From positions 1 to 38,096 of the forward strand of contig CALUXI010000015.1 in the NCBI GenBank assembly GCA_944324705.1: DNA of 38,096 nucleotides, written 5' to 3'. Shown one piece after another: positions 7,495-27,261 of this stretch. The notes beneath the pieces were generated by a model. That model worked only from the letters and a program-made list of their open reading frames with translations, made no database searches and had not been told where the DNA came from. The position numbers and the translations under genes were made by a program. How positions within the stretch are numbered: the stretch's first letter is position 1; every line of letters begins with the position of its first letter. Source of the DNA: an uncultured Acholeplasmatales bacterium (GTDB taxonomy: Bacteria; Bacillota_I; Bacilli_A; Acholeplasmatales; Anaeroplasmataceae).

Positions 7495-8856
7495 ATGGAT
7501 TTAGGATTATTTTTATTCTCATTGAGTGACTTTAAAACTGTCGATATTATCTTTCTATCTTGTTTTTTAGTTTTATTATTAATACTTATTGTTTTGTTAA
7601 TTTTCAAAAAAATACAAGATAAAAAGACAGCTAAAATTTTAAAGGAAGAATTCGAAAAATTAGATCAAAACGAAAAGCAAGAAGTAGAGAAAGTTGCTTT
7701 AGAAGCTAATCCATCTGAAGAAACAGAACCAGAAATGGTTGAACCGGCTCTTGCTGAAGAAGTAGAAGAGAAAGCAGCACCAATTGCTCAAACTACTCCA
7801 GTAGAAGAAAAAGCTGAAGAAGAACCAACAGAGGAAGTATTAGCTGAAGAACCTGTTGTAGAAGAGCCTGAAGTTAAGGAAGAAAATGTTGAAGTAGAAG
7901 AAACAAAAGAAGAGGTTGAAGAACCGTCAGAAGATGTTAGTGAGGAAGTTTCAGAACCAGTTCAAGAACCTACTGAAGAAGTTAATGAATCTGAAGTTGA
8001 GGAAGAGCCTGTAGTTGAAACTGAATCACCAGATGAGGAAAATGATATGGGAGAAGAAAAAGGAAGAGTATATCGCGGAAAATATGAAATATTCCAAGAA
8101 AACAATTATTATCGTTATCGTTTAAAAGCTTCTAATGGTGAAATTTTATTCGTATCTGAGATGTATGCGTCTAGATTAACAGTATTAAAATCAATTGAAG
8201 CTGTAAAACGTAATTTAGAAACTGGTAAGACACAAATCATAGTTGATAAGAAGAAAAATTATAAATTTAAACTTACTGCTGCTAACCATCGTGTATTAGC
8301 AATTAGCGCTAATTACCCTACAGAAAAAGGTGCTCAAAGTGCTTTAGAATCATTTAAACGTTTTGCTATTACTGATGATATTGTTGATATTGAAATTCCA
8401 GCCGAAGCTATTGATAATCAACTAGTAGAAATCTCTAAAGTTAAAGAAGAAGATAAAAAAGGCGGTAAATTTGTAATCCGTAAAGATATTAATGGTGAAT
8501 TCTCTTGGGAATTAAAGGCTAATAACGGAGAAATCTTATGCCAATTATCTGGTTATAGTTCAAAAAATAGTGTAGAAAATGCAATTTTAGCGTTTAAAGA
8601 AAATACTTCAACAGGTAAATTTTATTTATCAAAAGATAAGAATAACAATTATCAATTCAAATTATATTCACAATCAGGTCGATTAAGTGTTGTTGGTGAA
8701 TCATATGATTCAAGCAATGCAGTTTATAGTGTAGTTACTTCAATTCTTAACTTTACTGAACTTGCTACAATAAGTGATAGAACTAATCAAGTAGCTCAAG
8801 CCAAGAAAACTACTAAGAAATTAAAAACACGTAAAGCTAGTACTACAACAAATTAA
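7495..8856 (+). CDS. Membrane-anchored acidic protein with four DUF1508 (YegP-like) repeats
   Basis: The 453-residue protein has three parts. Residues about 17-40 form one transmembrane helix followed by lysines. Residues about 50-190 are a low-complexity, strongly acidic linker rich in Glu, Val and Pro. From residue about 195 to 445 there are four related units starting near residues 195, 245, 323 and 376. Units 1 and 3 have the DUF1508/YegP pattern: a GK[YF] strand, a second strand with Y/F, then KA.NGEI and a Ser-rich helix start. Units 2 and 4 are more diverged. The function of YegP domains is not established. The Lys after the helix suggest that the repeats face the cytoplasm. GGAGG lies just before the ATG. 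The gene is monocistronic, with its own promoter and terminator. Confidence 0.8.
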   Translation: MDLGLFLFSLSDFKTVDIIFLSCFLVLLLILIVLLIFKKIQDKKTAKILKEEFEKLDQNEKQEVEKVALEANPSEETEPEMVEPALAEEVEEKAAPIAQTTPVEEKAEEEPTEEVLAEEPVVEEPEVKEENVEVEETKEEVEEPSEDVSEEVSEPVQEPTEEVNESEVEEEPVVETESPDEENDMGEEKGRVYRGKYEIFQENNYYRYRLKASNGEILFVSEMYASRLTVLKSIEAVKRNLETGKTQIIVDKKKNYKFKLTAANHRVLAISANYPTEKGAQSALESFKRFAITDDIVDIEIPAEAIDNQLVEISKVKEEDKKGGKFVIRKDINGEFSWELKANNGEILCQLSGYSSKNSVENAILAFKENTSTGKFYLSKDKNNNYQFKLYSQSGRLSVVGESYDSSNAVYSVVTSILNFTELATISDRTNQVAQAKKTTKKLKTRKASTTTN

Positions 8857-8924: not shown

Positions 8925-9875
8925 CTATTTAAGAAGATAATTATTAAATTCTTTTAAATATGAATCAGCTTTGTCTTCAGTTAACTTATTGAGAAAGTAA
9001 ATACGATTATAATTTTCTTTACTAAATTCATAGAAGCGACAAGTTTTATCTCTATTACTATCATTCCATTTATTAAAACCTTCCTCTAAGATTCCTTTAT
9101 CATAACGGCAATTGATGAAATATGCTAAACCGTAATCGCGCCAAGGTCTAGCTAAATAAAAGGCTGCATTATTTTCAGTTTTAATATCACAATTTAAAAA
9201 TAGATAACCATATTCTAATTCTTTAGGATGACTTGGGGCACTTAAAAAACCACGTTTGCCTAAACAAATTAACTCACAATTTTTAAATAAAGCTGTTGCA
9301 CAACCAAATATAAAGTCTACATCACCGATAATTTTAGTATTTTCATATATTTGTTTAGAATTACCAGCTTTAATAACATCATTCTTCAAGAAACCTTGAT
9401 AACGAATTTTTAAATCAGCAGGTAAAGGTCCGGTAAATAAAGTATCTTGCTCGCTTTTAATTATTGAATTGCAACATTTAAAATGATCACCATAAACAGC
9501 TAAGGCTACTGCTTGTCCATAAGTTTTAGAATCACAAGTATTTTCAATTGTTATATTAGATAGATAATTATTATCTCCTAATAATTCTAGAGTATAAGTT
9601 CTAAAGGTATTACATTCATTATAATCATTCATTATTTTATGATAATGATCATTGTTAGTAATAATAGTTTTTTCTTTATCTTCACCTATAATTTTTAAAT
9701 TATTTAGATTTAAACTTAATTTTAATTTATAAACCCCTTCTTTAAAAAATAGTTCATCATTATCTTTTAACTTAGCTAATAGATCTTCAAGAATAGTATT
9801 TTTATCTATAATATAACGCATATAAATCGCTAGTATAATTAAAATGTACTTAATAATTATACTTACTCCTTTCAT
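8925..9875 (-). CDS. Pectin methylesterase (pectinesterase, CE8 family)
   Basis: The protein has the full CE8 catalytic set. Numbered from the ATG at 9875, these are Gln121 (GQAVAL), Gln143-Asp144 (EQDTL), Asp187 in GDVDFIFG (nucleophile), and Arg243 and Trp245 in LARPW. It hydrolyses methyl esters of galacturonan, releasing methanol and pectate. The start is unclear. The first ATG (9875) has no ribosome site. The only good one, AAAGGAG (9866-9872), lies just inside the frame and would serve an ATA or ATT codon at 9860 or 9857. The next ATG (9821) has no Shine-Dalgarno but gives the plain N-terminus MRYIIDKN. The 18 extra residues are hydrophobic but lack a clear cleavage site, so the enzyme may be cytoplasmic or N-terminally anchored. 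It fits the uxaBAC operon at 22897-27261. Confidence 0.88.
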   Translation of the reverse strand: MKGVSIIIKYILIILAIYMRYIIDKNTILEDLLAKLKDNDELFFKEGVYKLKLSLNLNNLKIIGEDKEKTIITNNDHYHKIMNDYNECNTFRTYTLELLGDNNYLSNITIENTCDSKTYGQAVALAVYGDHFKCCNSIIKSEQDTLFTGPLPADLKIRYQGFLKNDVIKAGNSKQIYENTKIIGDVDFIFGCATALFKNCELICLGKRGFLSAPSHPKELEYGYLFLNCDIKTENNAAFYLARPWRDYGLAYFINCRYDKGILEEGFNKWNDSNRDKTCRFYEFSKENYNRIYFLNKLTEDKADSYLKEFNNYLLK

Positions 9876-11938: not shown

Positions 11939-14011
11939 ATGATATTTAATGCTTTTTTAGATGCTGTTGATACTATAACAGTATTAGTTGATAAAAATAT
12001 CATAATTGAAAATAATTTTGCTTTAAATAACGATGAACAATTAATTTCATTAGAAATAATAAATCGTTATGAAGAAGAAAGTTGGTATAAATATAGTTTA
12101 AAATGTCCTATTATATTAGATATGACTAAATATATTTATATAACTAATGGTGAATATAAAACATTGTTGGTCACTGGTTCTTTTGTAAGAGATCCAAGAT
12201 TTGATGAATATTATAGTTATGATGGTAAACTTGGAGTAACTTATACTAAAGAAAGAACAACTTTTGATATTTGGTCTCCGGTAGCAAGATCACTTGTTTT
12301 AGAGTTAATTACTAAGAATGGTAAATTAATTAATAAAGAACTAACTTATTGCGGTAGGGGACATTATACTATCACTTTAGATGGTGATTATGAATGTTCT
12401 AAATATCGCTATAGAATTAAAATTTTTGAAGAAGAATATAAAATAGCAAACGATCCATATGGCATAGCTAGTGATGCTAATGGGAATTTTAATTATGTTG
12501 TAGATCCTGCTAAATTTAAAAAATTTATTTATTCAAAACCATATTTTTCAGGAAATTATACCGATAGTGTGATTTATGAAGCATCTATTAGAGATATGAC
12601 TAGTAAATTGCCGGTCAAACACCCAGGTACTTTTGCTGGATTATGTGAAAGAGTATTAACTAGCAAAGGAAAAATTACCGGCCTTGATTATGTAGCAAGT
12701 TTAGGTATAACTCATTTACAATTAATGCCAATATTTGATTTTTATGGTATATCTGATTTAAATCCACAAAGGTATTACAATTGGGGATATAATCCACATC
12801 AATATTTTGTTCCTAAAGGAGCGTATTCAACAGATCCTAATGATCCTTATGCAAGAATTAATGAGTTAATTAATTTAATTGATTTGTGTCATGCATATGG
12901 CTTACTTGTTAATATGGATGTGGTATTTAATCATGTCAATGATGCTCAAAAATTCCCTTTTGATATTTTAGTCCCTGGATATTACTTCCGAGCTAACAAT
13001 GGTTATTTAACTAATGTCTCAGGTTGTGGTAACGATCTAGCTACTGAGAAAAAAATGTGTCAAAAATTTATTGTTGATAACTTAGTTTATATGACAAATA
13101 CATATCATTTTAGTGGTTATCGTTTTGATTTAATGGGATTACTTGACATACCTACTATGGAATTAATTGAGAAAAATTTACGGGAAATTGAACCTAAAAT
13201 TATGTTATATGGTGAAGGATGGAACATGCCAAATACTTTACCTGAAAGTATGAGGCCATGTAGTCAAAACGCTAGATTATTGCCTAATTACGCCTTTTTT
13301 AATGATACATTTAGGGATATTATTAAAGGTTCACAATGGGGTGATAGTTCAGGTTTTATCACAGGTAAAAAAGTTAATGAATATGATTTGCTTCATATTT
13401 TAACTGGTTCAGTTTTAGATAATTATAAATTTGTAACTCCTAGTCAATCTATAAATTATATTGAATGCCATGATAATTATACAGTATATGACTTTATTAA
13501 AGCCCATTTGAGAAAAATTAAGGAAAGAGATGTTTATATAGCTGTTAAGTTAGGTTTATCATTAGTAATTCTTGCTCAAGGTGTTCCATTTATTCACAGT
13601 GGCCAAGAGTTTTTAAGAACTAAAAATGGAGTTGAAAATTCATACAATGCTGGTGATGATGTCAATGGTATTGACTGGGATAGAAAAGACTCATATCTTA
13701 ATATGGTTCAAATGACAAGAGATTTAATCACTATACGTCGACAATATGATGTTTTTAGATTAGAAAATGTTGATGAAATTAAATTAAGAGTTAATTATTT
13801 ACCTGAATATTCTGATGATTCAACTTTTGTTTTCTTGCTGAAGGAAAAGAAATGTGATTTATTCATTGTATTAAAGAATAAAAGAGGTCGTTTTGATTTA
13901 AAAAATCAACAGGCTAATTTAATTTTTGATGGTGAAAGATTATTAAATACACCAGTTAAAAAAATTAGTCTAAAAGATCGTGGGGTTTATATTTATAGGA
14001 GGGATAAATAA
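11939..14011 (+). CDS. pulA: Type I pullulanase (GH13, alpha-1,6-debranching enzyme)
   Basis: The 690-residue enzyme hydrolyses alpha-1,6 branch points in pullulan, glycogen or limit dextrins. An N-terminal part and a CBM48-like domain (residues about 75-180) precede the GH13 barrel. The barrel has the pullulanase signature YNWGYNP, the region VNMDVVFNH, nucleophile Asp397 (GYRFDLMG), acid/base Glu426 (YGEGW) and Asp512 (ECHDN). No signal peptide is present, so it acts in the cytoplasm, probably on stored glycogen or imported maltodextrins. An upstream in-frame GTG at 11930 overlaps the GGAG ribosome site; the ATG at 11939, 8 nt after that site, is the better start. The last A of its stop is the first base of yhaM. 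Confidence 0.93.
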   Translation: MIFNAFLDAVDTITVLVDKNIIIENNFALNNDEQLISLEIINRYEEESWYKYSLKCPIILDMTKYIYITNGEYKTLLVTGSFVRDPRFDEYYSYDGKLGVTYTKERTTFDIWSPVARSLVLELITKNGKLINKELTYCGRGHYTITLDGDYECSKYRYRIKIFEEEYKIANDPYGIASDANGNFNYVVDPAKFKKFIYSKPYFSGNYTDSVIYEASIRDMTSKLPVKHPGTFAGLCERVLTSKGKITGLDYVASLGITHLQLMPIFDFYGISDLNPQRYYNWGYNPHQYFVPKGAYSTDPNDPYARINELINLIDLCHAYGLLVNMDVVFNHVNDAQKFPFDILVPGYYFRANNGYLTNVSGCGNDLATEKKMCQKFIVDNLVYMTNTYHFSGYRFDLMGLLDIPTMELIEKNLREIEPKIMLYGEGWNMPNTLPESMRPCSQNARLLPNYAFFNDTFRDIIKGSQWGDSSGFITGKKVNEYDLLHILTGSVLDNYKFVTPSQSINYIECHDNYTVYDFIKAHLRKIKERDVYIAVKLGLSLVILAQGVPFIHSGQEFLRTKNGVENSYNAGDDVNGIDWDRKDSYLNMVQMTRDLITIRRQYDVFRLENVDEIKLRVNYLPEYSDDSTFVFLLKEKKCDLFIVLKNKRGRFDLKNQQANLIFDGERLLNTPVKKISLKDRGVYIYRRDK

Positions 14012-14928
14012 TGATTATTGATGGTATTATAGAAACTTCTAATAGTAATGACAATTATATTAATTTAGTTATTAAAAGTTCTAATAATACAATGTACAAT
14101 GTAAAAACTAGTAAGGCTTTAGCAAATAGTTTAAAAGAAAACCATGTTTATCGTTTCGTTGTTGATGAAGTTATTAGTAACAGAAAAAAGTATGTTTTGC
14201 ATGAGGTTATTGACTTAAGTAAGATTAATGATTTCAAAAGAGATGAAATATTAAGAGATTTTTTACCACATAAAGAAATGGATGCTAAAGAGGCTAAAAA
14301 TAAATTGTTTAATTATATAAATAATATAACTAATCCTATATTACAGGATATCACTAAAACATTAGTTGAAAGGAATGCCATTGATTTTCTAACCTATCCA
14401 GCTGGAACTAGAATTCATCATAATTTTTTAGGTGGTTTAGTTTATCATACCCTAGGGATGTTAGATTTGGCCAAATGTTGTTTAAATGTTTACCCTTATT
14501 TAAATCAAAGTTATTTATATGCTGGTATTATTTTACATGATTTAGCCAAAATTAAAGAATTTACGGATGTACAAAGTCCAGAATATAGTTTAGAAGGTCA
14601 AATGCTTGGACATTTAGTAATGGGGGCAATCTTAGTCAATCAAGTAGCTAAAGAAAAGGGATACGAAGGCACTGAAGAAGTTTTAATTTTAGAACACATT
14701 TTAATATCTCATCATGGTCAATTACAACTTGGATCAGCTAAAAAGCCTTTAACTGCTGAAGCTTTATTGATTTGGTATTTAGATACTATAGATTCTAAGT
14801 TTCAAGTTATTGGTGACGAATTAGCTAAGACAGCTGTTGGTACTTTTACCGATACTATTCCGATTATTGATCGTATGAAATTATATAAAGTAAAGGAAGA
14901 TAATAGTGATAAAGTTAAAGAAAAATGA
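14011..14928 (+). CDS. yhaM: 3'-5' exoribonuclease YhaM
   Basis: The 305-residue protein has a short N-terminal OB-like beta segment (residues about 1-75), then an HD-domain phosphohydrolase core. The metal-binding motifs are visible as IHHNFLGGLVYHTLGM, ILHDLAKI, GHLVMGAI and ISHHGQLQLGS. This pattern is that of YhaM/Cbf1 exonucleases of Bacillota, which trim RNA 3' ends and can act on DNA. It is slightly shorter than the Bacillus protein (about 314 residues). AGGAGGG at 13997-14003 precedes the ATG, whose first base is shared with the pulA stop. TGA is the stop codon. The following small gene overlaps its end. Confidence 0.92.
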   Translation: MIIDGIIETSNSNDNYINLVIKSSNNTMYNVKTSKALANSLKENHVYRFVVDEVISNRKKYVLHEVIDLSKINDFKRDEILRDFLPHKEMDAKEAKNKLFNYINNITNPILQDITKTLVERNAIDFLTYPAGTRIHHNFLGGLVYHTLGMLDLAKCCLNVYPYLNQSYLYAGIILHDLAKIKEFTDVQSPEYSLEGQMLGHLVMGAILVNQVAKEKGYEGTEEVLILEHILISHHGQLQLGSAKKPLTAEALLIWYLDTIDSKFQVIGDELAKTAVGTFTDTIPIIDRMKLYKVKEDNSDKVKEK

Positions 14929-15220
14929 CATTATTAACATGCTATTAGATAAAAATAATTTAGATGACTTAATTATTAATGATAATTATGGTTGTGATGT
15001 AGTTTTTGAGCAAATAGCTACTATTCCTTATTATGATAAATACTTAGATAAGGAAGATATTTATTGTATATTACATCCTAAGACTAAATCTAAAGAATTT
15101 AATCCTAACTATGTCTATCCTTTCTTGGTAAAAAAAGAAGGTAATGACTATAGTCTTGAAGCTTGTGATGATCCAGATATTTTAGCTGAATTAGATAAAA
15201 TATATAACGAATTAAATTAG
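14906..15220 (+). CDS. Small acidic protein of unknown family
   Basis: This 104-residue ORF starts at GTG 14906 with GGA of AAAGGAAG about 8 nt upstream, and it overlaps the yhaM end by 23 bp; the alternative ATG at 14939 has no ribosome site. The protein is rich in Asp, Asn, Tyr, Leu and Lys, with no membrane helix and no motif I recognise. Two parts look well formed: YYDKYLDKEDIYCILHPKT in the middle, and a C-terminal acidic segment (EACDDPDILAELDKIYNEL) that is probably helical. Tight coupling to yhaM and a terminator that begins inside the stop codon argue that it is a real gene. A link to RNA decay is only suggested by position. Confidence 0.65.
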   Translation: MIKLKKNDIINMLLDKNNLDDLIINDNYGCDVVFEQIATIPYYDKYLDKEDIYCILHPKTKSKEFNPNYVYPFLVKKEGNDYSLEACDDPDILAELDKIYNELN

Positions 15221-15243
15221 ACTGCTCTGCCAGTCTTTTTTTT
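15219..15243 (+). terminator. Intrinsic terminator of the pulA-yhaM operon
   Basis: AGACTG/CAGTCT (15219-15224 with 15231-15236), 6-nt loop and eight T. The stem starts inside the TAG stop codon. Confidence 0.88.
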
Positions 15244-15508: not shown

Positions 15509-15580
15509 GTCTTCTTATAAAGACAAAAAAGGTGTCTGAGGTCAACAAAGGTTTAAAAACCTAGGACTTTTAGACACCTT
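15509..15580 (-). terminator. Tandem terminators of the lipoprotein operon (minus strand)
   Basis: The minus strand shows AAGGTGTCT/AGACACCTT (15572-15580 with 15529-15537). This 9-bp outer stem encloses a smaller AGGTTT/AAACCT hairpin (15549-15554 with 15557-15562) and is followed by six T. A second hairpin, GTCTT/AAGAC (15509-15513 with 15520-15524), follows, with another T run beyond it. Confidence 0.8.
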
Positions 15581-15587
15581 AATTAGT

Positions 15588-18296
15588 TTATCTATTCCAA
15601 TTTATAGAACCATCTAAACTATACCAACTTAAATATTCTGATTCAGGATCATAAGATTCATTTTGATTCATTAAATAAGTCATGTAGAAGTTGTAATCAA
15701 AGTTACCAACTTTTTCTGCATTATTTACTGTTATTTCACCAAGACGGCGATATAAAGCAAATTTTTGGAAGTTTGAAGTTTGATAATGAGAAATTACATC
15801 ATCTAACAAGTCACTTAAATCACTTTCAATGCTACTTGGGAATGAAGTAACATCACCATCAGTATATTCTACATAATATACTAATACTTGTGCTAAAGTA
15901 GGACGTTTTTTATCTTCGTTGTTAATATTCACATTAATATAAACATCATCATTCTCATCATCTGCTTCATTTTCATCTAAAATAACTTTAATATCTGAAT
16001 AATCTTCGTCATCCAAACTAAAGTCTAAAGTATTTTCAGATTGTTTCTCATATGTGTTTACACTTAATAAATGGAAACCATAATTAGTTTGACATAAAGT
16101 AGAAGAAGTTTCAGCATTATCAAAGTCTACCTCAACAAAAGTGTCATTATTAACAGGTCCATTAGGGCTGTAGAATATACCTTTGTCTTCATCATCTTCA
16201 TCAATTTCTACATTATCTTCAACAATTTTATTATACAAATCATGTAAATAATTTTGGAATGGTTCAACATAATTACTAACAGAATCGTTAGTAACTTCAC
16301 CTAATGATTCGGCAGTCAATATGAAGTTATATGTTTTATAATCGGCCCAAGTCTTATCGGAAATATGAGTAGGTAAATCACGATTAAATGCATCTACTAT
16401 ATAGCTTAATTTATCCATATTAGTATGATCATTAATTGCTAGAGCCTCACTTAAAATAGCTTTAGCTAGATCATTTAGAGCTTTTTGGAAATCTTCTTTT
16501 TGTTCAAGTGTTAAATCAGCTAAAAATGCATCCATATCATCAGGGCTACCATCAGCATTATTATCTATAGAAATTAAAATATGATCAACAGTTATATCAA
16601 TATATTCATCATTTCCATAATTAGCAAGAGCAGTATTTAGTAGATTACTTAAGATATTCAATTTAGAATCTTCGCTCATTTGATGATCAGCAGTACCCCA
16701 ATTATTTGAAATATAATCTGCTAAATAAGCTGTTTGAATATCACTTGCTAATTGACTATTTATTACTTCATCAAAAGTATAGTAACCATAGTTATAGAAT
16801 AAGTAATTAGATTCACCATAGGCTTTGTTAAGAGCTGTTTTTCCTTTTTTGAAGGCTTTAATGTTGCTATTAACAGCATTTTCCTTTTCTTTTCTAGCAT
16901 CTTCATCTAAATAACTAGATTCTTCATTTAATAATAATTGATTAACTAATAAAGTTATTACTGTCTCATTAATGTTATAAGTAGTTAAATCATTATAGAA
17001 ATCATCTACTGAATAAGAAATATCAGAGTTTGTAGAGAAAATTAAATCATTGCTAGAAGTAGTAGTATATTCATAATCAGTATAAGCATTAGCAAAGCTA
17101 TTTTCTAAGAAAGGATCATAGATTTTTAAGTCTAAAGCCATTATACGATCAGTAAATACTGTAGTATTAACAGAACTTGCATTTGATTCAATAATATCTG
17201 CTTTACATAATTCATCAATTTCAGCTTTCTTTTCAGCGCTTAAATCATTATATTCAACGATTTCATTAGTACCGGAAACATTATAATGTACACTATCACG
17301 ATAAATTAAATAATATTTATCACCAATATTACGTGGTTTTGATAAGCCCTCTCCATCTTCTAAAGCGTCAAAGAAGAAGTCGGTTACAGAAGAGGAAATA
17401 TTATCTAAACCAATATTATCTTTATCAGTAATGAAAGTTGTATTTTCATTTTCATCTAAGGCTTCAGTTAATGGTGTGTCATATTTATAATAAGCATTAT
17501 AAATCTCAATATACTTTTGTTTAATATTATCAGTAGTTATACCACCAACTAGATTAATATAGCGTTCTGCTTCTTTTAATGAATTGAATTTAAGAACAAT
17601 ACCATAAGCAGTATTATATTCTTTATATGTTTCATTATATTTATCTTCTAAATCTTTTTCATCAATATAGTAAGTATTTTCAGTTTCTATATTGCTATCT
17701 TCTTCATCAATAATAAACTCATCATCAGCAATATCGTTTAAATAAGCTATACTTGCTTTTTCTTTAGCTAAAGAAGTAGCGTAGAATTTAATTATTTCAT
17801 CATTTAGATGAGAAAAACTAATATCTTCAGTATCCTTAGTTATAGGATCAAAGTTTAACATACTTTTATCAGTAATAATTAAGCCTTGATTAGCAATGTT
17901 ATCAACATAAGTATTAACACTTTTTTCTAAATCTTTTGTGGTTTTAACTTTTAAAGTATTAATATCAGAAGAACCATAAACGGCTTCAGCTACAGCCTTA
18001 TCAATTTCAACTTTAGCTTCACCATTAGCTTTATATTCTTCAATTACATCAGTATATTCATCTTCATAAACTATGTCATTTAATTTATTAGTTAAAACAG
18101 TGTAACCATAAGAATATTTTAAGCGATTATATAATTGTTTTTCAGTAACATTATAATTACCTGCAGTAACAACAGCATTGTCACTAAGACTGCCATAAGG
18201 AACCTGTTGATTACGAGTATCTTCCTTACATGCAGCTAAGGTACAAATTGAAACAGCAGCTAAGGATAAACCTAAGAATCTCTTAATATTTTTCAT
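15588..18296 (-). CDS. Large lipoprotein, PrsA/SurA-like, second gene of a tandem pair
   Basis: The 902-residue protein starts with a lipoprotein signal: basic MKNIKR, a hydrophobic stretch and lipobox LAAC with Cys23. The mature part opens with a segment (VTAGNYNVTEKQLYNRL) like the N-terminal helix region of SurA/PrsA foldases. Two stretches resemble the end of parvulin domains: one near residue 300 (EDGEGLSKPRNIGDKYYLIY) and one near 780 (CQTNYGFHLLSV). A central VDHILISIDNNADGSPDD combines a parvulin-like first strand with an Asp-rich, calcium-loop-like motif. It would be anchored outside the membrane and might help fold secreted proteins, which is an inference. Known PrsA proteins are about 300 residues, so this is unusually large. 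It shares one base with the upstream gene's stop. Confidence 0.65.
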   Translation of the reverse strand: MKNIKRFLGLSLAAVSICTLAACKEDTRNQQVPYGSLSDNAVVTAGNYNVTEKQLYNRLKYSYGYTVLTNKLNDIVYEDEYTDVIEEYKANGEAKVEIDKAVAEAVYGSSDINTLKVKTTKDLEKSVNTYVDNIANQGLIITDKSMLNFDPITKDTEDISFSHLNDEIIKFYATSLAKEKASIAYLNDIADDEFIIDEEDSNIETENTYYIDEKDLEDKYNETYKEYNTAYGIVLKFNSLKEAERYINLVGGITTDNIKQKYIEIYNAYYKYDTPLTEALDENENTTFITDKDNIGLDNISSSVTDFFFDALEDGEGLSKPRNIGDKYYLIYRDSVHYNVSGTNEIVEYNDLSAEKKAEIDELCKADIIESNASSVNTTVFTDRIMALDLKIYDPFLENSFANAYTDYEYTTTSSNDLIFSTNSDISYSVDDFYNDLTTYNINETVITLLVNQLLLNEESSYLDEDARKEKENAVNSNIKAFKKGKTALNKAYGESNYLFYNYGYYTFDEVINSQLASDIQTAYLADYISNNWGTADHQMSEDSKLNILSNLLNTALANYGNDEYIDITVDHILISIDNNADGSPDDMDAFLADLTLEQKEDFQKALNDLAKAILSEALAINDHTNMDKLSYIVDAFNRDLPTHISDKTWADYKTYNFILTAESLGEVTNDSVSNYVEPFQNYLHDLYNKIVEDNVEIDEDDEDKGIFYSPNGPVNNDTFVEVDFDNAETSSTLCQTNYGFHLLSVNTYEKQSENTLDFSLDDEDYSDIKVILDENEADDENDDVYINVNINNEDKKRPTLAQVLVYYVEYTDGDVTSFPSSIESDLSDLLDDVISHYQTSNFQKFALYRRLGEITVNNAEKVGNFDYNFYMTYLMNQNESYDPESEYLSWYSLDGSINWNR

Positions 18297-21200
18297 TAGT
18301 TATTACCTCCAGCCACAAATAATTCTTGTAAACTAGTCCACCAACCAGCAAAATTATTATATAAATCATCATTGCCATAATCGATATATTCATCGGCCGC
18401 TCTTTGATTTATTTCTAATAATAAAGCAATACGACTATTATTTTCAGCATCACTGAATTGTAATTTTGTAATATCACCATTTGCAATATAATTTAAGATT
18501 ATTTCAAATTGAGTTCCATTATCTTGGAATCTAGTTAAAACAGGGCTTAAATAATTTGTAATACTATCTGATATATCACTAGGTAATAAATTAGAAGTAG
18601 AACTTGCAATATATTCTAGTAAGTAAGCTTTAATTTGATTTTGATTTAAAGTATCTCCATCATTATAAACATTATCTACTTTTATTACATTTTCATTGTA
18701 CATATAATAAATATCTTTATATAAACCATAAGTATCACTATCTTCTTCATATTTAGCAGAAGAAGGAGCAGTAGCACCAGTTATAATGAAATAGTTAATA
18801 CTATCATTAGCTTCTACAGTAGTTGTATCTACATTAGGTAAGTAAGCTGTAGGGAAGTTATTATTAACTTGGAAATCTTCACTGTTATATATATCACGAA
18901 TTGTATCTTTAATAGCTAAATCAACATCAGTAGATGAGTTAGTAACTGTAATTTCTGAAGTTGTAATAGCAAAGCCTAGTTTTTTATAAATTGAGAAATC
19001 CCATTCATTACCGATAGGATCGTAATAGCCATCATTGTCAAATTGATTACCTTCATGTGGATTATAACGACTTGAAGAATTATAGTTTTCAACAATAGTA
19101 GTTAGGGCATCAGTATGAGTATCAGAAGAAGCACTAATTAATTCATTAATTTTAGTAATTAAATCAATAGCAACATCTTTATAAGTTTTTTCTTCTCCAT
19201 TTACAGTAACCAGTTTATCTTTCCAATTATTAATGTCGTCAGCCACACCATCTTCATCTATATCTAAGTATACGGCTAGATTTTGAGCTGTTACACTGAA
19301 GTAATTTTCATAAGCTTTTGTACTAAATTCATGGAAAAAGTTAATCCATTTATCATTACTATAATCTACTAATTGTTGTTGTGAAACATAAGAAATTTTA
19401 TAAACATCATTAACAATTTCATCAATATCAGAAGTATGGTAATAAAGCATTAAGAAATTATATTTACCAATAGAAGCAGGATAACCACTAGAAGATAGAC
19501 CATCATTAGCAAAACTTGCAAGTAATATTTCAATTGTACTATAGAATGCATCAACTATATCTTGAGGAATGTTTTTATAGGCTTCAGTATCTTTCATCAT
19601 TTGATGACTAATTAAATTAGCAGCAACAGTAATACCAGAACGATATTCTAATATGTCATATAAGCCTTTTCCATCTTCAGTAGTAACATAAGCATTTAAT
19701 GTTCTATCATCATAAGTAAATGTTGCAACTGTATTATTATCAGGAGCACCAGATAGAGTTCTATTATAGTCAGTGTTATTTACAGCATAAGATATTTCAA
19801 TAGCACTATCAAAAATTTTAACTTTAACTTCATTAGTAGCTTCAGTTAATTTTTCAGAAATATAAGAACTTGTTAAATCTTCATCTGTTAAGTCCTTAAT
19901 AATTCGATCATATAAACTAACACCATCAACAGAGCTTGTTGAATCTAAAATATTTTGATAAACTTCATCAGTAGTTAAAGTGTCATCAATGATTCCATTT
20001 TCATTTTGATTAGGTTTGTCGTCATCAGTATATTGTTGACTAATCTTATAAACCATATATTGATAATTTTCATTAGAATATTTATCCTCAGTAGTAGAGA
20101 AACGATTATATTCTAAACTCTCATCTTCAGGACTAGGAGTATTAAGAGTTTCATACACATAATCATATAGCCCTGAATCTAAATCATTTAACTCTTCAGC
20201 TGTGTAAGTAATATATTCACTATTAACAGCAGTTTTAGCAGCATCAGTAATAGCTTTAATTCTAGCATCATCACTAGCAGCATCATATACTAAATTTTCT
20301 TGATTATAGTAATCTATAATAGCTTTAGTAGTGGCTCTTTGGTCAATAATGTTTTGATTTTCAAAAGTACTGCCTTCACTCTTGTAATTAGGAATAGGAT
20401 TACGATAAGTATATATGTAATTGTACATAGCAATATATAATTGTAAGATTATAGAGTGACCATAGTTAGAATCTAAATTGAAGTATTCACTAGTATCAGC
20501 TTCATCAAAGTCAAAGTCTTCATAATAAGAGATGTATTCATTATATGATTCTGGGGTTTTAGGTAAATAATAGAAAGACCCATCTTCAACTTTAATACCA
20601 AATGCTCTTAAAGTATTATTCATTTCATCTTCAGAAGCAAATTTAATCATTATTAAATCAACATCACCTTGATTTAAATAATTGTCTTCATATTTAGTGA
20701 CGATTTCTGATTTGCTAAAGTATCCTACAGTATTATCGTCATCATCATTTTTAGCTTCTTCATTTTTCTTATCAATTTCTTCTTGCAATTTTTCTCTAGC
20801 GTATAATTCGCTAGCAAAATCATTGTAATAGACTTCATATAAAGGGCTTAAACTAGCATAGTCATAATTAGTTAAAGCATTTTTAATTTCATCTATAGAA
20901 ATATTAACCCTATAAGTAGTATAAATATCATCAGCATACTTAGTGATTTTTTGTTCTTTATCAGTATCAGATAAATCTTCAATTTCCTCATCATGATTTT
21001 CTAAAGAAAAGTCAAAATCATAAGCATCTTCAATGATATAATTTTGTAATCTTTCGACATAATAATTATAGTTAGCATTATTTTTGTCATTTAAAACATT
21101 TTTAATATCATCAATTTGATTTTGTAAGACAATTTGTTCTTTATAATCAGCAAATAAATCGCTTGCTTGCCATCTTAATTCGTTCCATACATCACCTTTA

Positions 21201-21358
21201 GTAACTTGGTAGTTACCAACTGTCAAATATGAATCAGAACTATTAGCAGGGGCAATGTCAGAATTGCTACAAGAACTTATTGTTATAGCTATAATATGTG
21301 CTAGACCTAGGGTTAGAAGTCGGCGCCCATTTCGTTTAAATTTAGTAAGTTTAGACAT
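18296..21358 (-). CDS. Large lipoprotein, PrsA/SurA-like, first gene of a tandem pair
   Basis: The 1020-residue protein has a basic N-terminus (KFKRNGRR), a hydrophobic stretch and a lipobox ISSC with Cys30. The mature part starts with LTVGNYQVTKGDVWNELR, matching the same place in the downstream gene (V.AGNY.VT), and the two continue in parallel: a KSEIVTKYEDNY...LIMIKF segment, a DEVKVKIFDSAIEISYA-like segment and a central LDIDEDGVADD Asp-rich loop. They are therefore distant paralogues. The composition is very acidic, rich in Asp, Asn, Tyr and Ser, as expected for exported proteins of low-GC Gram-positives. AAGGAG lies 7 nt before the ATG. A foldase or surface role is inferred from the weak SurA/PrsA resemblance only. 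Confidence 0.6.
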   Translation of the reverse strand: MSKLTKFKRNGRRLLTLGLAHIIAITISSCSNSDIAPANSSDSYLTVGNYQVTKGDVWNELRWQASDLFADYKEQIVLQNQIDDIKNVLNDKNNANYNYYVERLQNYIIEDAYDFDFSLENHDEEIEDLSDTDKEQKITKYADDIYTTYRVNISIDEIKNALTNYDYASLSPLYEVYYNDFASELYAREKLQEEIDKKNEEAKNDDDDNTVGYFSKSEIVTKYEDNYLNQGDVDLIMIKFASEDEMNNTLRAFGIKVEDGSFYYLPKTPESYNEYISYYEDFDFDEADTSEYFNLDSNYGHSIILQLYIAMYNYIYTYRNPIPNYKSEGSTFENQNIIDQRATTKAIIDYYNQENLVYDAASDDARIKAITDAAKTAVNSEYITYTAEELNDLDSGLYDYVYETLNTPSPEDESLEYNRFSTTEDKYSNENYQYMVYKISQQYTDDDKPNQNENGIIDDTLTTDEVYQNILDSTSSVDGVSLYDRIIKDLTDEDLTSSYISEKLTEATNEVKVKIFDSAIEISYAVNNTDYNRTLSGAPDNNTVATFTYDDRTLNAYVTTEDGKGLYDILEYRSGITVAANLISHQMMKDTEAYKNIPQDIVDAFYSTIEILLASFANDGLSSSGYPASIGKYNFLMLYYHTSDIDEIVNDVYKISYVSQQQLVDYSNDKWINFFHEFSTKAYENYFSVTAQNLAVYLDIDEDGVADDINNWKDKLVTVNGEEKTYKDVAIDLITKINELISASSDTHTDALTTIVENYNSSSRYNPHEGNQFDNDGYYDPIGNEWDFSIYKKLGFAITTSEITVTNSSTDVDLAIKDTIRDIYNSEDFQVNNNFPTAYLPNVDTTTVEANDSINYFIITGATAPSSAKYEEDSDTYGLYKDIYYMYNENVIKVDNVYNDGDTLNQNQIKAYLLEYIASSTSNLLPSDISDSITNYLSPVLTRFQDNGTQFEIILNYIANGDITKLQFSDAENNSRIALLLEINQRAADEYIDYGNDDLYNNFAGWWTSLQELFVAGGNN

Positions 21359-21456: not shown

Positions 21457-21484
21457 TTGATTTAAAAATATTTAATGTTATAAT
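21457..21484 (+). promoter_or_regulatory. Promoter of walJ-rlmH
   Basis: TTGATT (21457-21462), 16-bp spacer, TATAAT (21479-21484) with an extended TG at 21476-21477. The -10 box overlaps the in-frame ATG at 21483, so that codon cannot be the start of the mRNA made from here. Confidence 0.8.
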
Positions 21485-21503
21485 GACAAAAGGTGAAAAG
21501 ATT

Positions 21504-22313
21504 ATGCTTATAAAAGTTTTAGCTAGTGGTTCTAGTGGCAATTCTTGTTTTATAAAAACAAAACATGCAAAATTTTTAATTGATGTGGGAATAACTAAAA
21601 AAAAGATAGAAGATGAGTTAAATAAAATTAATGAAAGTATTGTTAATCTTGATTTTATTTTAATAACTCATGAGCATATAGACCATATAAAAGGATTGTT
21701 AATGGTATTAAAATATTCAAAAGCTTTAGTTTATTTAACATTAGGGACTTTAGAAGGATTATTTGAAAGAGAAGATTTTGTTAAATTTTATAATTTAAAT
21801 AAAGAAAGATTTATTATATTAAGTAAAAATGGTAATGATTATTATGAATTTAATTTACTTGATTTAAATATAAAACCTCTAATTGCTTTTCATGATGCAA
21901 AAGAACCAGTTGGTTTTTTGATATGCAATGAAAATAAAAAAGTAACATATTTGACGGATACAGGTTATATTCATCAAGATGTTATGAATTTAATTAAAGA
22001 TTGTACATGTTATATTTTTGAAACCAATCATGATCCGGAAATTCTTATGAATTCAAGTAGACCTTATCAACTTAAAATGCGAATTTTATCAGATTATGGA
22101 CATTTGTCTAATGCTGATAGTTTATATGCTTTGGCTAATTTAGTTGGTAAAAATACTAAATATATTATATGTGCACATATATCTAGTGAATGTAATTTGC
22201 GAGAAATAATATTATTAACTTACAAAAAAATATTTCAAAAATTAGGTATTGATAATACTAATATTAAACTGGTAATGTCCTTACCTAATGCACTTGAGGC
22301 TATTGAACTATGA
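21504..22313 (+). CDS. walJ: WalJ/YycJ-type metallo-beta-lactamase-fold hydrolase
   Basis: The 269-residue protein begins with MLIKVLASGSSGNS, the usual start of WalJ, and has the metal motif THEHIDH. Further metal ligands are in LTDTG, ETNHD and CAHIS. WalJ (YycJ) is an MBL-fold nuclease-like protein usually encoded with the WalRK cell-wall two-component system, and it has been linked to DNA replication or repair and wall control. An in-frame ATG at 21483 would add seven residues, but it lies in the -10 box, and AGGTG at 21491-21495 suits the ATG at 21504. The next gene is rlmH, as in Bacillus, but the walRK-yycHI genes and the HtrA-like protease gene that normally sit nearby are absent. It overlaps rlmH by 4 bp. 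Confidence 0.9.
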   Translation: MLIKVLASGSSGNSCFIKTKHAKFLIDVGITKKKIEDELNKINESIVNLDFILITHEHIDHIKGLLMVLKYSKALVYLTLGTLEGLFEREDFVKFYNLNKERFIILSKNGNDYYEFNLLDLNIKPLIAFHDAKEPVGFLICNENKKVTYLTDTGYIHQDVMNLIKDCTCYIFETNHDPEILMNSSRPYQLKMRILSDYGHLSNADSLYALANLVGKNTKYIICAHISSECNLREIILLTYKKIFQKLGIDNTNIKLVMSLPNALEAIEL

Positions 22314-22774
22314 AAATAAGTGTTATATGTGTAGGTCAAATTAAAGAAAAGTATTTAAAAGAAATGAATGATGAATATTTAAAAAGATTAAACAAGTATG
22401 TAAACATTAATATTATTGAATTACCAGATAAAGCTATTAATAAAGATGAAAATAAAATAAAAAAACAAGAAGGAGAAGAAATAATTAAAAAAATCCCTAA
22501 CAATTCTTATGTTATTTGCTGTGATGAGCATGGAAAAATGTTTACTAGTATAGAATTTGCTGAAGAAGTAGATAGAATATTCAGTTTAAAGTCAGGCCAT
22601 ATATGTTTTATTATAGGTGGAAGTTTAGGTTTGAGTGATGAAGTATTAGAGTTAGCTAATCTAAAATTAAGTTTTTCAAAAATGACTTTAATACATCAAT
22701 TTGCTAGAGTTTTTTTACTTGAACAGGTTTATCGTGCCTTTAAAATTAACCATAATGAAACATATCATAAATAA
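22310..22774 (+). CDS. rlmH: 23S rRNA (pseudouridine1915-N3)-methyltransferase RlmH
   Basis: This 154-residue SPOUT-class methyltransferase modifies Psi1915 in helix 69 of 23S rRNA, using S-adenosylmethionine. It has the standard length and motifs: KEKYLKEMNDEYLKRL near the N-terminus, VICCDEHGK, the knot region FIIGGSLGLSDEV, and the C-terminal SFSKMTLIHQFARVFLLEQVYRAFKI. The start ATG overlaps the TGA stop of walJ (ATGA), so translation is coupled. A terminator follows. Confidence 0.96.
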   Translation: MKISVICVGQIKEKYLKEMNDEYLKRLNKYVNINIIELPDKAINKDENKIKKQEGEEIIKKIPNNSYVICCDEHGKMFTSIEFAEEVDRIFSLKSGHICFIIGGSLGLSDEVLELANLKLSFSKMTLIHQFARVFLLEQVYRAFKINHNETYHK

Positions 22775-22896: not shown

Positions 22897-24351
22897 ATGG
22901 AAAAATTAAACAAAAAAATTCATGACAAACCAAATCGTCCTGTAAAGGTGCTTCAATTTGGTGAAGGAAACTTCTTAAGAGCTTTCGTTGATTGGATTAT
23001 TCAAAAAATGAACGAAAAAGGAGTTTTTAATGGGGGGGTGTGTGTTGTTCAACCAATGCCTTTTGGCCGTGTTAAAGAATTAGCTGAACAAGATGGTCTA
23101 TATACTTTAATACTTCAAGGTAGACAAAATGGTCAAGATATTAGACAACCACAAATAATAGATGTTTTAGAAGATTTCATTAACCCTTTTGAACAATATG
23201 ACAAATATTTAGAATATGCAAAGAGTGAAGATTTAGAATTCATTATTTCTAACACTACTGAAGCTGGTATAGCTTATGATCCTAATGATACAGATCTAAC
23301 AGTTACTCCAAAAAGCTATCCAGGTAAATTGCTTGCTTTCTTAAAGAAAAGATATGAACATTTTAATGGTTCTAAGGAAGCAGGTTTAGATATTATTCCA
23401 TGTGAACTAATTGATTATAATGGTGATACTTTAAAAGAAGTATTAGTTAAATTAGCTAATCACTTAAATTTAGATCAAAAATTTATTACATGGTTAACAG
23501 ATGCAAATAGATACTACAATACATTAGTAGATCGTATTGTACCAGGTTATCCACGCGGCGAAGATAAGAAATTATGGGAAGAATTTGGCTATGAAGACAA
23601 TAATATGGTTGTAGGAGAAATCTTCCATTTATGGGTTATTCAAGGTCCTAAAGGATTAGAAGCTAAATTACCTGCTCCTAAAGCTGGCTTAGAGGTATTA
23701 TTTGTTGATAACATTAAACCATACAAAGAAAGAAAAGTTAAGATTTTAAATGGTTCACATACTTGTTTAGTTCCAGTATCTTATTTAGCTGGTATTGATA
23801 CAGTTAGAGAAACAATTGAAGATCCACAATTAGGTAAATTTGTTAAAGAATTCATTTTTAATGAAGTAGTACCTACAATTAATATCCCACGTGATCAAAT
23901 GGTATCATTCTCAAATTCTGTATTAGAAAGATACTCAAATCCATTTGTTCGCCATGAATTAATGAGCATTGCTTTAAATAGTGTTACTAAATTTAAAACA
24001 AGAGTATTACCTACTATTGTTGAAAACATTCGTGATTTAAAACACTTCCCAACTCATGCTTTATTTAGTTTAGCTGCCTTAATGGTATTCTATCGTGGCA
24101 AACGTGGTGATGAAGATATTGCTTTACAAGATAATCCTGAATTCTTAGATTTATTCAAGAAATTATGGAGTGAATATGAAAATACACAATTAGGTGCTAG
24201 AAAACTTGTAGAACAAGTATTAGGTTTAAAAGAACATTGGGAAATTGATTTAAATGAACTAGAAGGTGTAACTGATTTTGTTGCAAGTTCATTATATGAA
24301 ATTGTAAATAAACCAATGCGTGAAGCTTTAGTTAATAAAGTGGGTTGCTAG
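22897..24351 (+). CDS. uxaB: Tagaturonate reductase (altronate oxidoreductase)
   Basis: The 484-residue enzyme, close to the E. coli UxaB length of 483, belongs to the long-chain mannitol dehydrogenase family and reduces D-tagaturonate to D-altronate with NADH. The N-terminal Rossmann region has LQFGEGNFLRAFVDWI. The catalytic set Lys280-(4)-Asn285-(2)-His288 lies in RKVKILNGSHT and has the family spacing. UxaB is preferred over fructuronate reductase (UxuB) because uxaA and uxaC follow directly. TAGGAGG sits 5 nt before the ATG. It is first in the uxaB-uxaA-uxaC operon and is separated from uxaA by one base. Confidence 0.93.
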   Translation: MEKLNKKIHDKPNRPVKVLQFGEGNFLRAFVDWIIQKMNEKGVFNGGVCVVQPMPFGRVKELAEQDGLYTLILQGRQNGQDIRQPQIIDVLEDFINPFEQYDKYLEYAKSEDLEFIISNTTEAGIAYDPNDTDLTVTPKSYPGKLLAFLKKRYEHFNGSKEAGLDIIPCELIDYNGDTLKEVLVKLANHLNLDQKFITWLTDANRYYNTLVDRIVPGYPRGEDKKLWEEFGYEDNNMVVGEIFHLWVIQGPKGLEAKLPAPKAGLEVLFVDNIKPYKERKVKILNGSHTCLVPVSYLAGIDTVRETIEDPQLGKFVKEFIFNEVVPTINIPRDQMVSFSNSVLERYSNPFVRHELMSIALNSVTKFKTRVLPTIVENIRDLKHFPTHALFSLAALMVFYRGKRGDEDIALQDNPEFLDLFKKLWSEYENTQLGARKLVEQVLGLKEHWEIDLNELEGVTDFVASSLYEIVNKPMREALVNKVGC

Positions 24352-24352
24352 T

Positions 24353-25831
24353 ATGAATGATTATATTATCATAAATCAAAAAGATAATGTAGCCGTTTGT
24401 TTACGTGACTTTAAAAAGGGTGAAAAAATATTAGATGTTACTTTATTAGAAGATATACCACGTGCTCATAAAGTGGCATTAGTAGATATTAAAAACGGCT
24501 CAGATATAATAAAATATGGTTATCCAATTGGTCATGCAACATCTGATATTAAGGCAGGTATGCATGTACATGTAAATAACACTAAAACTAATTTAAATGA
24601 TTTGTTTAATTATGAATATCATCCACATTTTAATAAAGTACATACCATAAAAAAAGATGCTACTGTTGATGTTTATGTAAGAAAAAATGGCGAATGTGGT
24701 ATTCGCAATGAATTATGGATTGTTCAAACTGTAGGTTGTGTATCAGGTATAGCTCATAACATTATAAATGAATTTAAAAAACGCTATGACACATCAAAAA
24801 TAGATGGTATTTATACATTTAATCATCCTTTTGGTTGTTCACAAATGGGTGATGATCATACTATGACACGTACAATTTTACAAGATATGGTAAAACACCC
24901 TAATGCTGGTGGGGTACTAGTTTTAGGTTTAGGTTGTGAAAATAATCAAGTTCCTGTTTTTAAAGAAACATTAGGTTCATATGACGAAGAAAGAACACGT
25001 TTTATGATTTTACAAGAATCAAAGAATGAAATCGAAGATGGTGTTAGATTATTAAAAGAGTTATATGATAAGATGGCTAATGATAAGAGAGAAACTAAAC
25101 CTATCTCTGTATTACGAGTTGGTTTAAAATGTGGTGGTAGTGATGGTATGTCTGGTATTACTGCTAACCCATTATTAGGGGCATTCAGTGATTACATGGC
25201 TTTAAATGGTGGTACTACAGTTTTAGGTGAGGTTCCTGAAATGTTTGGGGCTGAACAAATTCTTATGGCTAGGGCTAAAAATGAAACAATTTTCAATAAA
25301 ACAGTTTCATTAATTAATGATTTTAAAGCTTATTTTAAATCACATAATCAAGTAATATATGAAAACCCAAGTCCAGGTAATAAAAAAGGTGGTATTACAA
25401 CTTTAGAAGATAAATCTTTAGGCTGTACACAAAAATCAGGTCATAGTGAAGTTTGTGATGTTCTAAAAATGGGTGAAAGAATTAAAGAGCACGGACTAAA
25501 CTTAATTTCAACTCCTGGTAATGATTTAGTTGCTACAACTACACTAGGTGCTGCTGGGTGTCAAATGGTTTTATTTACAACTGGCCGTGGTACACCATTT
25601 GGCGGGTTTATTCCTACTGTTAAAGTTGCAAGTAATACTAATTTAGCATTAGCAAAACCTGAATGGATTGATTTTAATGCTGGTGCCTTAGTTGGTGAAA
25701 AGACTATGGATGAATTATTAGCTTCATTTATAGATTTAATATGTGATATTGCAAGCGGTAGAAAATTAGCTAATAATGAAAAAAATAATTTTAGAGAAAT
25801 ATCAATATTTAAAGATGGCGTAATGCTATAA
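24353..25831 (+). CDS. uxaA: Altronate dehydratase
   Basis: The 492-residue enzyme dehydrates D-altronate to 2-keto-3-deoxygluconate. An N-terminal SAF-like domain (residues about 1-85, with GYPIGHATSDIKAGMHVHVNNTKTNL) precedes the large dehydratase domain containing RNELWIVQTVGCVSG, HPFGCSQMGDDH, LGLGCENNQ and GLKCGGSDGMSGITANP. The cysteines in these motifs are the likely ligands for the metal or Fe-S centre of this family. The length matches E. coli UxaA (495). The start is one base after the uxaB stop, so translation probably depends on coupling. Confidence 0.94.
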   Translation: MNDYIIINQKDNVAVCLRDFKKGEKILDVTLLEDIPRAHKVALVDIKNGSDIIKYGYPIGHATSDIKAGMHVHVNNTKTNLNDLFNYEYHPHFNKVHTIKKDATVDVYVRKNGECGIRNELWIVQTVGCVSGIAHNIINEFKKRYDTSKIDGIYTFNHPFGCSQMGDDHTMTRTILQDMVKHPNAGGVLVLGLGCENNQVPVFKETLGSYDEERTRFMILQESKNEIEDGVRLLKELYDKMANDKRETKPISVLRVGLKCGGSDGMSGITANPLLGAFSDYMALNGGTTVLGEVPEMFGAEQILMARAKNETIFNKTVSLINDFKAYFKSHNQVIYENPSPGNKKGGITTLEDKSLGCTQKSGHSEVCDVLKMGERIKEHGLNLISTPGNDLVATTTLGAAGCQMVLFTTGRGTPFGGFIPTVKVASNTNLALAKPEWIDFNAGALVGEKTMDELLASFIDLICDIASGRKLANNEKNNFREISIFKDGVML

Positions 25832-25848
25832 TAAAAGAGGTAAAAGAA

Positions 25849-27261
25849 ATGAAAAAATTTATGGATAAAGACTTTTTATTGACAACTGAAACTGCAAAAA
25901 AGTTATTTCATGAACATGCAGAAAAAATGCCTATTATTGACTATCATTGTCATTTACAACCAAAAGAAATTTATGAAGATAAGAAATTCCGTAATTTAAC
26001 TGAAGTTTGGTTAGGTGCTGGTGATAGATATGGGGATCACTATAAATGGCGTTCTTTAAGAGCTAGAGGTTATTGCGAAGATAGTATTTCTGGTCCATGG
26101 GATGATAAAGAAAAATATCTACAATTTGTTGAAAGTATGCCATATTTTGTAGGTAATCCTTTATATCATTGGTCTCACTTAGAAATGCAAAGATACTTTG
26201 ATATTTATGATATTATTTGTCCAAAAAATGCAGAAAAAATTTGGAATGAAGCTAATAAAAAATTAGAAACTTTAACAGCTAGACAAATGATGTATAAATT
26301 CAATGTAAAGACTGTATGTACTACAGATGATCCAGTTGATGATTTACATTATCATAAATTAATGAATGAAGATAAAACATTAAAGACAGTAGTAAGACCT
26401 GCCTTCCGTCCGGATAAGGCTATTAACTGCGAAGCTAGTTGGTATGTTGATTGGGTTAACCAATTAGCAAAAGTAGTTGGATATGAAATTAAATCAATTA
26501 GTGATTTTTGTAAGGCTTTAGCTAGTCGTATTGATTTCTTCCATTCAATGGGTTCACGTTTGTCAGACCATGCTTTAGATGTTGTTCATTTTGTTAAAGC
26601 AAGTGAAAAAGAAGCTAATGAAGTTTTCTTAAAAGCAATGCAAAAACAAGCATTAACAGATCATGATTTAGATGTATATAAAGGTTATATTTTAGTATTC
26701 TTAGGTAAAGAATATAATAAACATGGTTGGGTACAACAATATCATATTGGTGCTTTACGTAATAATTCAGAAAAAATGTTAAAAGCTATTGGTCCTGATA
26801 CTGGTTTTGATGCTATTGAAGATGCTGTTTATATGGAAAAATTATCAGCATTATTACGTGAACAAGATGCAACTGATGAATTACCAAAAACTATTTTATA
26901 TTGCTTAAATCCTCGTGATAATTATGCTTTAACAGTTTTAGCAGGTTGCTTCCAAAAAGAAGGAGTTAAATCAAGAGTACAAGTTGGTACAGCTTGGTGG
27001 TTCCTTGATCAATTAGATGGTATGAGACAAAATTTAGAAACATATATGCAAGTTGGTTTATTAAGTCAATCTGTAGGTATGTTAACTGATTCTCGTTCAT
27101 TCCTAGCTTATCCTCGTCATGAATATTATCGTCGTTTACTTTGTGAAATGTTAGGTAATTTAGTTGAATCAGGTCAATACCCTGTTGAAGAATTAGATAC
27201 TTTAGGTAAAATTGTAGAAGATATTTGTTACAATAATGCTAAAGAATTCTTTGGTTTTTAA
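25849..27261 (+). CDS. uxaC: Glucuronate/galacturonate isomerase
   Basis: At 470 residues this has the same length as E. coli UxaC. It converts D-galacturonate to D-tagaturonate and D-glucuronate to D-fructuronate, the first step of the pathway although it is the last gene of the operon. Recognised motifs are the amidohydrolase-type metal site IDYHCHLQP near residue 30, TVCTTDDPVDDL, FRPDKA, QYHIGALRNN, and the C-terminal LTDSRSFLAYPRHEYYRR. AGAGG lies before the ATG, 17 bp after uxaA. No uxuA or uxuB is seen, so galacturonate is the more likely substrate here. A terminator follows. Confidence 0.95.
   Translation: MKKFMDKDFLLTTETAKKLFHEHAEKMPIIDYHCHLQPKEIYEDKKFRNLTEVWLGAGDRYGDHYKWRSLRARGYCEDSISGPWDDKEKYLQFVESMPYFVGNPLYHWSHLEMQRYFDIYDIICPKNAEKIWNEANKKLETLTARQMMYKFNVKTVCTTDDPVDDLHYHKLMNEDKTLKTVVRPAFRPDKAINCEASWYVDWVNQLAKVVGYEIKSISDFCKALASRIDFFHSMGSRLSDHALDVVHFVKASEKEANEVFLKAMQKQALTDHDLDVYKGYILVFLGKEYNKHGWVQQYHIGALRNNSEKMLKAIGPDTGFDAIEDAVYMEKLSALLREQDATDELPKTILYCLNPRDNYALTVLAGCFQKEGVKSRVQVGTAWWFLDQLDGMRQNLETYMQVGLLSQSVGMLTDSRSFLAYPRHEYYRRLLCEMLGNLVESGQYPVEELDTLGKIVEDICYNNAKEFFGF

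Follow-up and report, generated by a model that had tools for sequence, protein, structure and literature searches.

What is the function of the two giant lipoprotein genes that lie in tandem in a 38,096-nucleotide stretch of DNA from an uncultured Acholeplasmatales bacterium? The stretch, called the window here and meant at its full length, corresponds to contig 15 of a genome of 1.64 Mb. Gene B (18296..21358, minus strand) is the upstream member and encodes a lipoprotein of 1020 residues; gene A (15588..18296, minus strand) is the downstream member and encodes one of 902. A first description made from the letters alone (the sequence-only reading) had seen two overlapping frames of 902 and 1020 codons, a lipobox on both products, a common opening (V..GNY.VT) and an old duplication; it took the pair for the largest genes of the window and for PrsA/SurA-like foldases with weak features. 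The frames are exactly where that reading placed them, the stop codon of B and the start codon of A being fused in TAATG (a one-base overlap), and the next largest gene of the window is that of the 801-residue LeuRS. The lipobox is present on both proteins and in their relatives (19/19 A sequences, 18/18 B sequences and 16/16 single-copy relatives). With a probability of roughly 0.78, we regard the pair as the extracytoplasmic secretion foldase (PrsA) system of this lineage. Beyond the sequence-only reading, we find two PrsA-like modules in each protein, parvulin histidines that are kept in A and lost in B, and a single corresponding gene in sister families.

Two PrsA-like modules in each chain

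Direct BLASTP comparison matches A to B (E = 2e-06) in the N-terminus, where the common opening is real, and in a second stretch. When relatives are used to build profiles of the A and B families, the two profiles align along 840 columns (E = 2.8e-68), so that full-length paralogy, and with it the old duplication, is secure. The sister families f3 and f5 (families of the class other than the window's are denoted by codes: f3, f5, f9, f16, f19, f23, f24 and the like) have one gene of about 950–1090 residues that matches both A and B, and f4 has two adjacent giant genes. At the level of sequence, B and A are shown to be paralogues of the gene that is single-copy in the sister families; the split may have occurred inside the window's family or earlier in the order, the tree being compatible with either.

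Searches with the single sequences of A and B gave no match in Pfam, NCBIfam or the PDB, and neither protein has a Pfam Rotamase or SurA_N domain above the curated cut-off. Profiles are more informative. A canonical PrsA profile, assembled from 23 smaller PrsA-like proteins that occur in the class (mostly 320–360 residues), aligns by hhalign with A module 1 (residues 37–406; 17079..18188, minus strand) over nearly its full length (E = 3e-8, signal peptide removed), with A module 2 (residues 412–902; 15591..17063, minus strand) in an alignment running from the PrsA N-domain (E = 5.7e-12) and with B module 2 (residues 539–983; 18410..19744, minus strand; E = 2.5e-5); reversed-profile controls give E of about 0.5. 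B module 1 (residues about 38–520; 19799..21247, minus strand) is assigned by homology to A module 1. When a module 2 profile of A and its single-copy relatives was run against PDB sequences, 11 of the 12 matches were PrsA, SurA or parvulins (best E = 0.024); one such weak match alone would carry no weight, and it is their consistency that counts. The module 1 profile had no match among PDB sequences. Among the relatives, f12 proteins of 760–778 residues carry Rotamase_3 in their second half above the Pfam cut-off (49.8 and 51.1 versus 22.5 bits), and the single-copy relative L041 matches NCBIfam PrsA with E = 3.5e-6.

AlphaFold2 models, calculated from alignments of 40–41 sequences, have pLDDT = 87.5 and pTM = 0.76 for A and pLDDT = 84.0 and pTM = 0.77 for B. 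Their best Foldseek and VIA rows are SurA, PrsA and parvulin proteins. Residues 37–406 of A align with PrsA of Bacillus subtilis [4wo7, VIA Z-score: 7.8, 247 of 256 residues] and of pneumococcus [5tvl, Z-score: 7.7, 259 of 270 residues], and residues 539–983 of B with the PpiC/PrsA protein of Enterococcus faecium [9ibn, Z-score: 6.5, 256 of 275 residues]. Both regions, by these whole-PrsA alignments and by hhalign, contain an NC (SurA_N-type) foldase domain. Parvulin domain 2 of A (residues 564–748; 16053..16607, minus strand) superimposes on Pin1 (1zcn, Z-score: 6.0, 99 residues aligned). Comparison of A with the trigger factor fold (3gu0) gave a Z-score of 2.7 over 107 residues. The fold checks that the sequence-only reading had proposed, by modelling and by profile, returned PrsA, SurA and parvulin matches, and the foldase assignment is better supported than ‘weak’, by profiles to both halves of A and by structure. 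On these comparisons each protein is shown to consist of two consecutive PrsA-like modules in one chain, which explains the large size of A and B; a single-module PrsA has about 270–340 residues.

Parvulin histidines of A and B

Parvulins carry two active-site histidines, one on the first strand (in a HILI-like sequence) and one on the last (GxH). In A these are His572 (DHILI; 16581..16583, minus strand) and His742 (GFHLL; 16071..16073, minus strand), both invariant in 40/40 A sequences. In the set compared across groups, module 2 has both histidines in 19/19 A and 16/16 single-copy proteins and neither of them in any B protein (0/18). The corresponding residues in the degenerate parvulin domain 2 of B (residues 686–864; 18767..19303, minus strand) are Asn693 and Asn855, the latter position being Asn in at least 90% of B sequences. 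In module 1 the histidine pair is absent from every protein checked, and the pair that marks PrsA is found in module 2 of A only. A is predicted to be an isomerase and B a pseudo-isomerase; by its sequence, B is classed as PrsA-derived rather than as active PrsA. In 14 of 15 genomes conservation is nevertheless higher for B than for A, which argues that B is not decaying and is selected for something other than catalysis.

After parvulin strand β1, A has an acidic loop (DxNxDGxxDD; 16536..16565, minus strand) that resembles a calcium loop and is putative as such. The strict form DxDxDGxxD occurs in 16/19 A, 11/18 B and 9/16 single-copy proteins, and the acidic loop is kept in the window's order, in f24 and in most of f9. 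We did not find it in f16 or, with few exceptions, in f19, and the idea of a calcium-binding loop common to these proteins was dropped.

Conservation of the pair, its neighbourhood and repeated duplication

Whether the two genes are always adjacent, a question raised by the sequence-only reading, could be answered for the window's family, which includes the cultured Anaeroplasma bactoclasticum ATCC 27112 (L097). B is followed directly by A in 38/38 loci long enough to show both, with a spacing of −64 to +17 that is commonly −1 or +1 and mostly −1 to +2, and a ribosome site (AGGAG/GGAGG) precedes both genes in the window. The pair is shown by these loci to be fixed in the family. No broken B beside an intact A was seen among the loci examined, though a search for related loci that used A alone as the query returned no relative, and a mixed alignment of the modules offered no conserved stretch. 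No relatives were found on viral contigs, and there is accordingly no sign of a phage origin.

At many loci, single and paired alike, the genes are flanked on one side by a metallo-hydrolase and RlmH and on the other by YhaM. In the window, these are a divergent gene for a hydrolase of the metallo-β-lactamase fold (21483..22313, plus strand; identified by Pfam, WalJ/YycJ-like by context), whose cluster covers 71 loci of the neighbourhood set, the RlmH gene (22310..22774, plus strand; NCBIfam) and the gene for a YhaM-like 3′–5′ exoribonuclease (14011..14928, plus strand; NCBIfam YhaM, E = 7.7e-60). The Listeria prsA2 and Staphylococcus aureus prsA genes adjoin yhaM, and in B. subtilis prsA is close to it (PMC3921577). 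This common synteny supports orthology with prsA rather than mere resemblance.

The distribution of ordinary PrsA domains agrees with this. Among 100 genomes of the class, 31 have strong matches to the giants and 50 have Rotamase_3 matches, and none has both; of the weak giant matches, 14 share a genome with Rotamase_3, chiefly in f12 and f15. Across 100 relatives in the order there was no match to Rotamase and none above the cut-off to SurA_N_3, and the giants are consequently the only PrsA candidates found there. In a small genome (g23) that has no giant foldase, a 1041-residue open frame (G094:C40:2775-3074, L104) gives a weak SurA_N_3 match of 23.2 bits, below the cut-off.

Relatives are present in 129 of 296 sampled genomes of the class, the weakest of these matches possibly being ordinary parvulins. 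Adjacent pairs occur in every f9 locus examined, with Asn/His in the long copy and neither histidine in the short copy. In the f23 pairs the long copy is His/His, and the short copy either has neither histidine (L147) or is without the first one (L229). In part of f19 the pair members flank the metallo-hydrolase gene, one on each side, and exactly one copy keeps the first histidine in 6/6 pairs (four times the long copy and twice the short one), these pairs being in part close relatives and not six independent events; either copy may thus be the histidine loser there. Single-copy members mostly keep both histidines, with exceptions at one or both sites in L241, L246 and L249. At the f24 loci L230–L237, two giants of about 870 and 1120 residues are found at separate chromosomal places, and in some genomes Gln replaces the first histidine of the longer one.

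In a quick tree of these divergent proteins, which is of limited reliability, the pairs fall within their own families and eight label changes are needed. A single common origin of all histidine-poor copies is rejected by the approximately unbiased (AU) test (log-likelihood difference 691, p = 2e-47), in which the ‘live’ class included the f9 long copies that keep the second histidine only. Judged from these results, duplication with loss of histidines in one copy has occurred repeatedly and independently in several families, and the duplicates are usually one histidine-richer and one histidine-poorer member.

Function of the pair, alternative explanations and the wider locus

We take the giants to be PrsA-type chaperones in a paired, double-module form. 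With PrsA of Bacillus, Listeria and Staphylococcus, and with PpiC of E. faecium, they have in common the lipoprotein anchor, the NC foldase domain with a parvulin and the yhaM neighbour, and A also has the histidine pair. PrsA itself is a single module of about 270–340 residues that forms a homodimer, whereas here there are two modules per chain of 902–1020 residues, a second gene whose parvulin lacks the two histidines, an acidic loop that follows parvulin β1 and no domain detectable by Pfam. The mechanism that we favour is a two-component chaperone. Both proteins would carry a lipid anchor and be positioned outside the membrane at the Sec exit. Canonical PrsA dimerises by domain swapping and forms a crevice for clients (PMC12826049, PMC12524980); the two modules of each chain may mimic such a dimer in cis and form one large client-binding crevice. 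A would bind emerging polypeptides and isomerise prolyl bonds through parvulin 2, while B may bind and hold clients without isomerising them, or act as a scaffold for A. Coupling through TAATG would give near-equal amounts of the two, which suggests a stoichiometric A–B complex or a hand-over pair.

Several observations weigh against this assignment. A and B themselves match no Pfam or NCBIfam family. The PrsA match of B module 1 is weak (E = 6.7e-7 with the signal peptide and 0.0016 without it). Modules 1 and 2 resemble each other weakly (E of about 1e-3), and ‘two modules’ rests for this reason on each module matching PrsA. VIA gives modest Z-scores, from 6 to 9.5, and the Foldseek E-values for B exceed 0.7; with Z-scores at this level, the structural case rests on its agreement with the profile results. 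The histidines are helpful and not strictly needed in all parvulins, which makes an inactive B a prediction.

The alternative that survives best is that A alone is a foldase and that B is a surface protein of another function, for instance an adhesin or a binding protein, which came to reuse the PrsA scaffold once the gene had duplicated. A lipobox-anchored position at the surface, predicted for both proteins, would suit this, as would the loss of both histidines from B and its much weaker match to PrsA than that of A. We consider it unlikely, given that B is coupled to A in every complete locus, is the more conserved of the two and retains the acidic loop and the order of modules, and that histidine-poor partners arose again in other families; adhesins, moreover, usually diverge faster.

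It is less probable still that the proteins are SurA-type chaperones, with a single N-domain and two inserted parvulins (the first inactive, the second active) in place of two PrsA modules. SurA, the periplasmic chaperone of Gram-negative bacteria, does have more than one parvulin, with the signatures of activity in the later one, and SurA (2pv3) aligns across residues 38..859 of the A model (274 residues). SurA is soluble, however, and its one N-domain carries two parvulins, whereas the present chains are lipoproteins with an N-domain in each half: the model of A places a second N-domain hairpin (strands 418–421 and 427–429) and helices (430–526) between the parvulins, the canonical PrsA alignment runs from its N-domain into A module 2, and A module 1 by itself spans almost the whole of PrsA. 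Selection may instead have relaxed once the genes were duplicated in tandem, with one copy heading for loss and a meaningless histidine pattern. This would fit the recurrence of duplications and the missing first histidine of the f9 long copy and is the least probable of the three, since the histidine-less B is kept family-wide and is better conserved than A, and exactly one copy keeps the first histidine in every f19 pair, whichever copy that is.

PrsA is best known as a folding factor for penicillin-binding proteins (PBPs), and in B. subtilis its essential role is linked to them (PMC6858329). In the window's genus, PBP transpeptidases were found in 0/8 genomes and the giant pair in 8/8. PBP transpeptidases are absent also from f3 and f5 and present in several genera of the window's family and in f4; wall loss seems patchy within the order, and the window's bacterium seems to lack a cell wall. 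Since the pair persists without exception where PBP transpeptidases are missing, a PrsA-type system there must serve other clients. The clients of the pair are thus not, or not only, PBPs, and are probably other exported proteins such as lipoproteins, transporter binding proteins and hydrolases.

Two PrsA-type lipoproteins per cell are also found in Listeria (PrsA1 and PrsA2), where they have separate roles; those are single-module proteins, and both show peptidyl-prolyl isomerase activity (PMC12826049), whereas here one member is histidine-less and the genes are coupled. The Mpn444/DUF3713 lipoproteins of Mycoplasma are likewise giants, often in tandem arrays. In one Mycoplasma-like family, a genome may carry as many as six or more DUF3713 giants (L148–L178), which often lie in tandem. 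The Mpn444 structure (9gn0), which we take to be the solved member of DUF3713, gives a weak fold match to the B parvulin (Z-score: 4.2) and to A (Z-score: 3.8). The DUF3713 profile (PF12506) has no match in this genome or the order, and a sequence link was not accepted, the signal being confined to the signal peptide (E = 0.17 for mature profiles). The weak resemblance in fold, the comparable size and the tandem arrangement hint that the Mycoplasma giants, such as the essential Mpn444, could be extreme descendants of the same double-PrsA system, a speculative idea that we think improbable and that the sequence tests do not support. If it were true, wall-less bacteria would generally rely on giant, often duplicated PrsA-derived chaperones, many copies of which lack catalysis.

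We found no published description of these giant lipoproteins, most subscription journals lying outside the coverage. Their assignment locates the missing PrsA for a broad set of gut bacteria and relatives of the Mollicutes where curated domain models detect nothing of the kind, and accounts for two of the largest genes left unannotated there. The repeated split into histidine-bearing and histidine-poor copies is a natural replicated experiment on whether isomerase activity is needed in every foldase subunit, a question made testable by cultured Anaeroplasma and Acholeplasma.

The transcription signals proposed by the sequence-only reading are borne out in part. A strong terminator-like hairpin behind A (15515..15590, minus strand; −19 kcal/mol, z = −3.5) followed by UUUUUU ends the pair; in the second hairpin of the supposed double terminator (15219–15236) the T-tract is on the plus strand, and this hairpin suits the opposing gene. 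For the pair's own promoter, the upstream scan gave weak consensus matches that do not clearly exceed chance. No Rfam RNA was found in the window. Elsewhere in the window, a uronate/pectin cluster (8925–9875 and 22897–27261) encodes a pectinesterase, a mannitol/fructuronate-type dehydrogenase, an altronate/galactarate dehydratase and a glucuronate isomerase, for pectin and uronate use in a presumably wall-less gut bacterium. The 453-residue product of positions 7495–8856 has three DUF1508 repeats, and its N-terminal stretch is weakly SieB-like.

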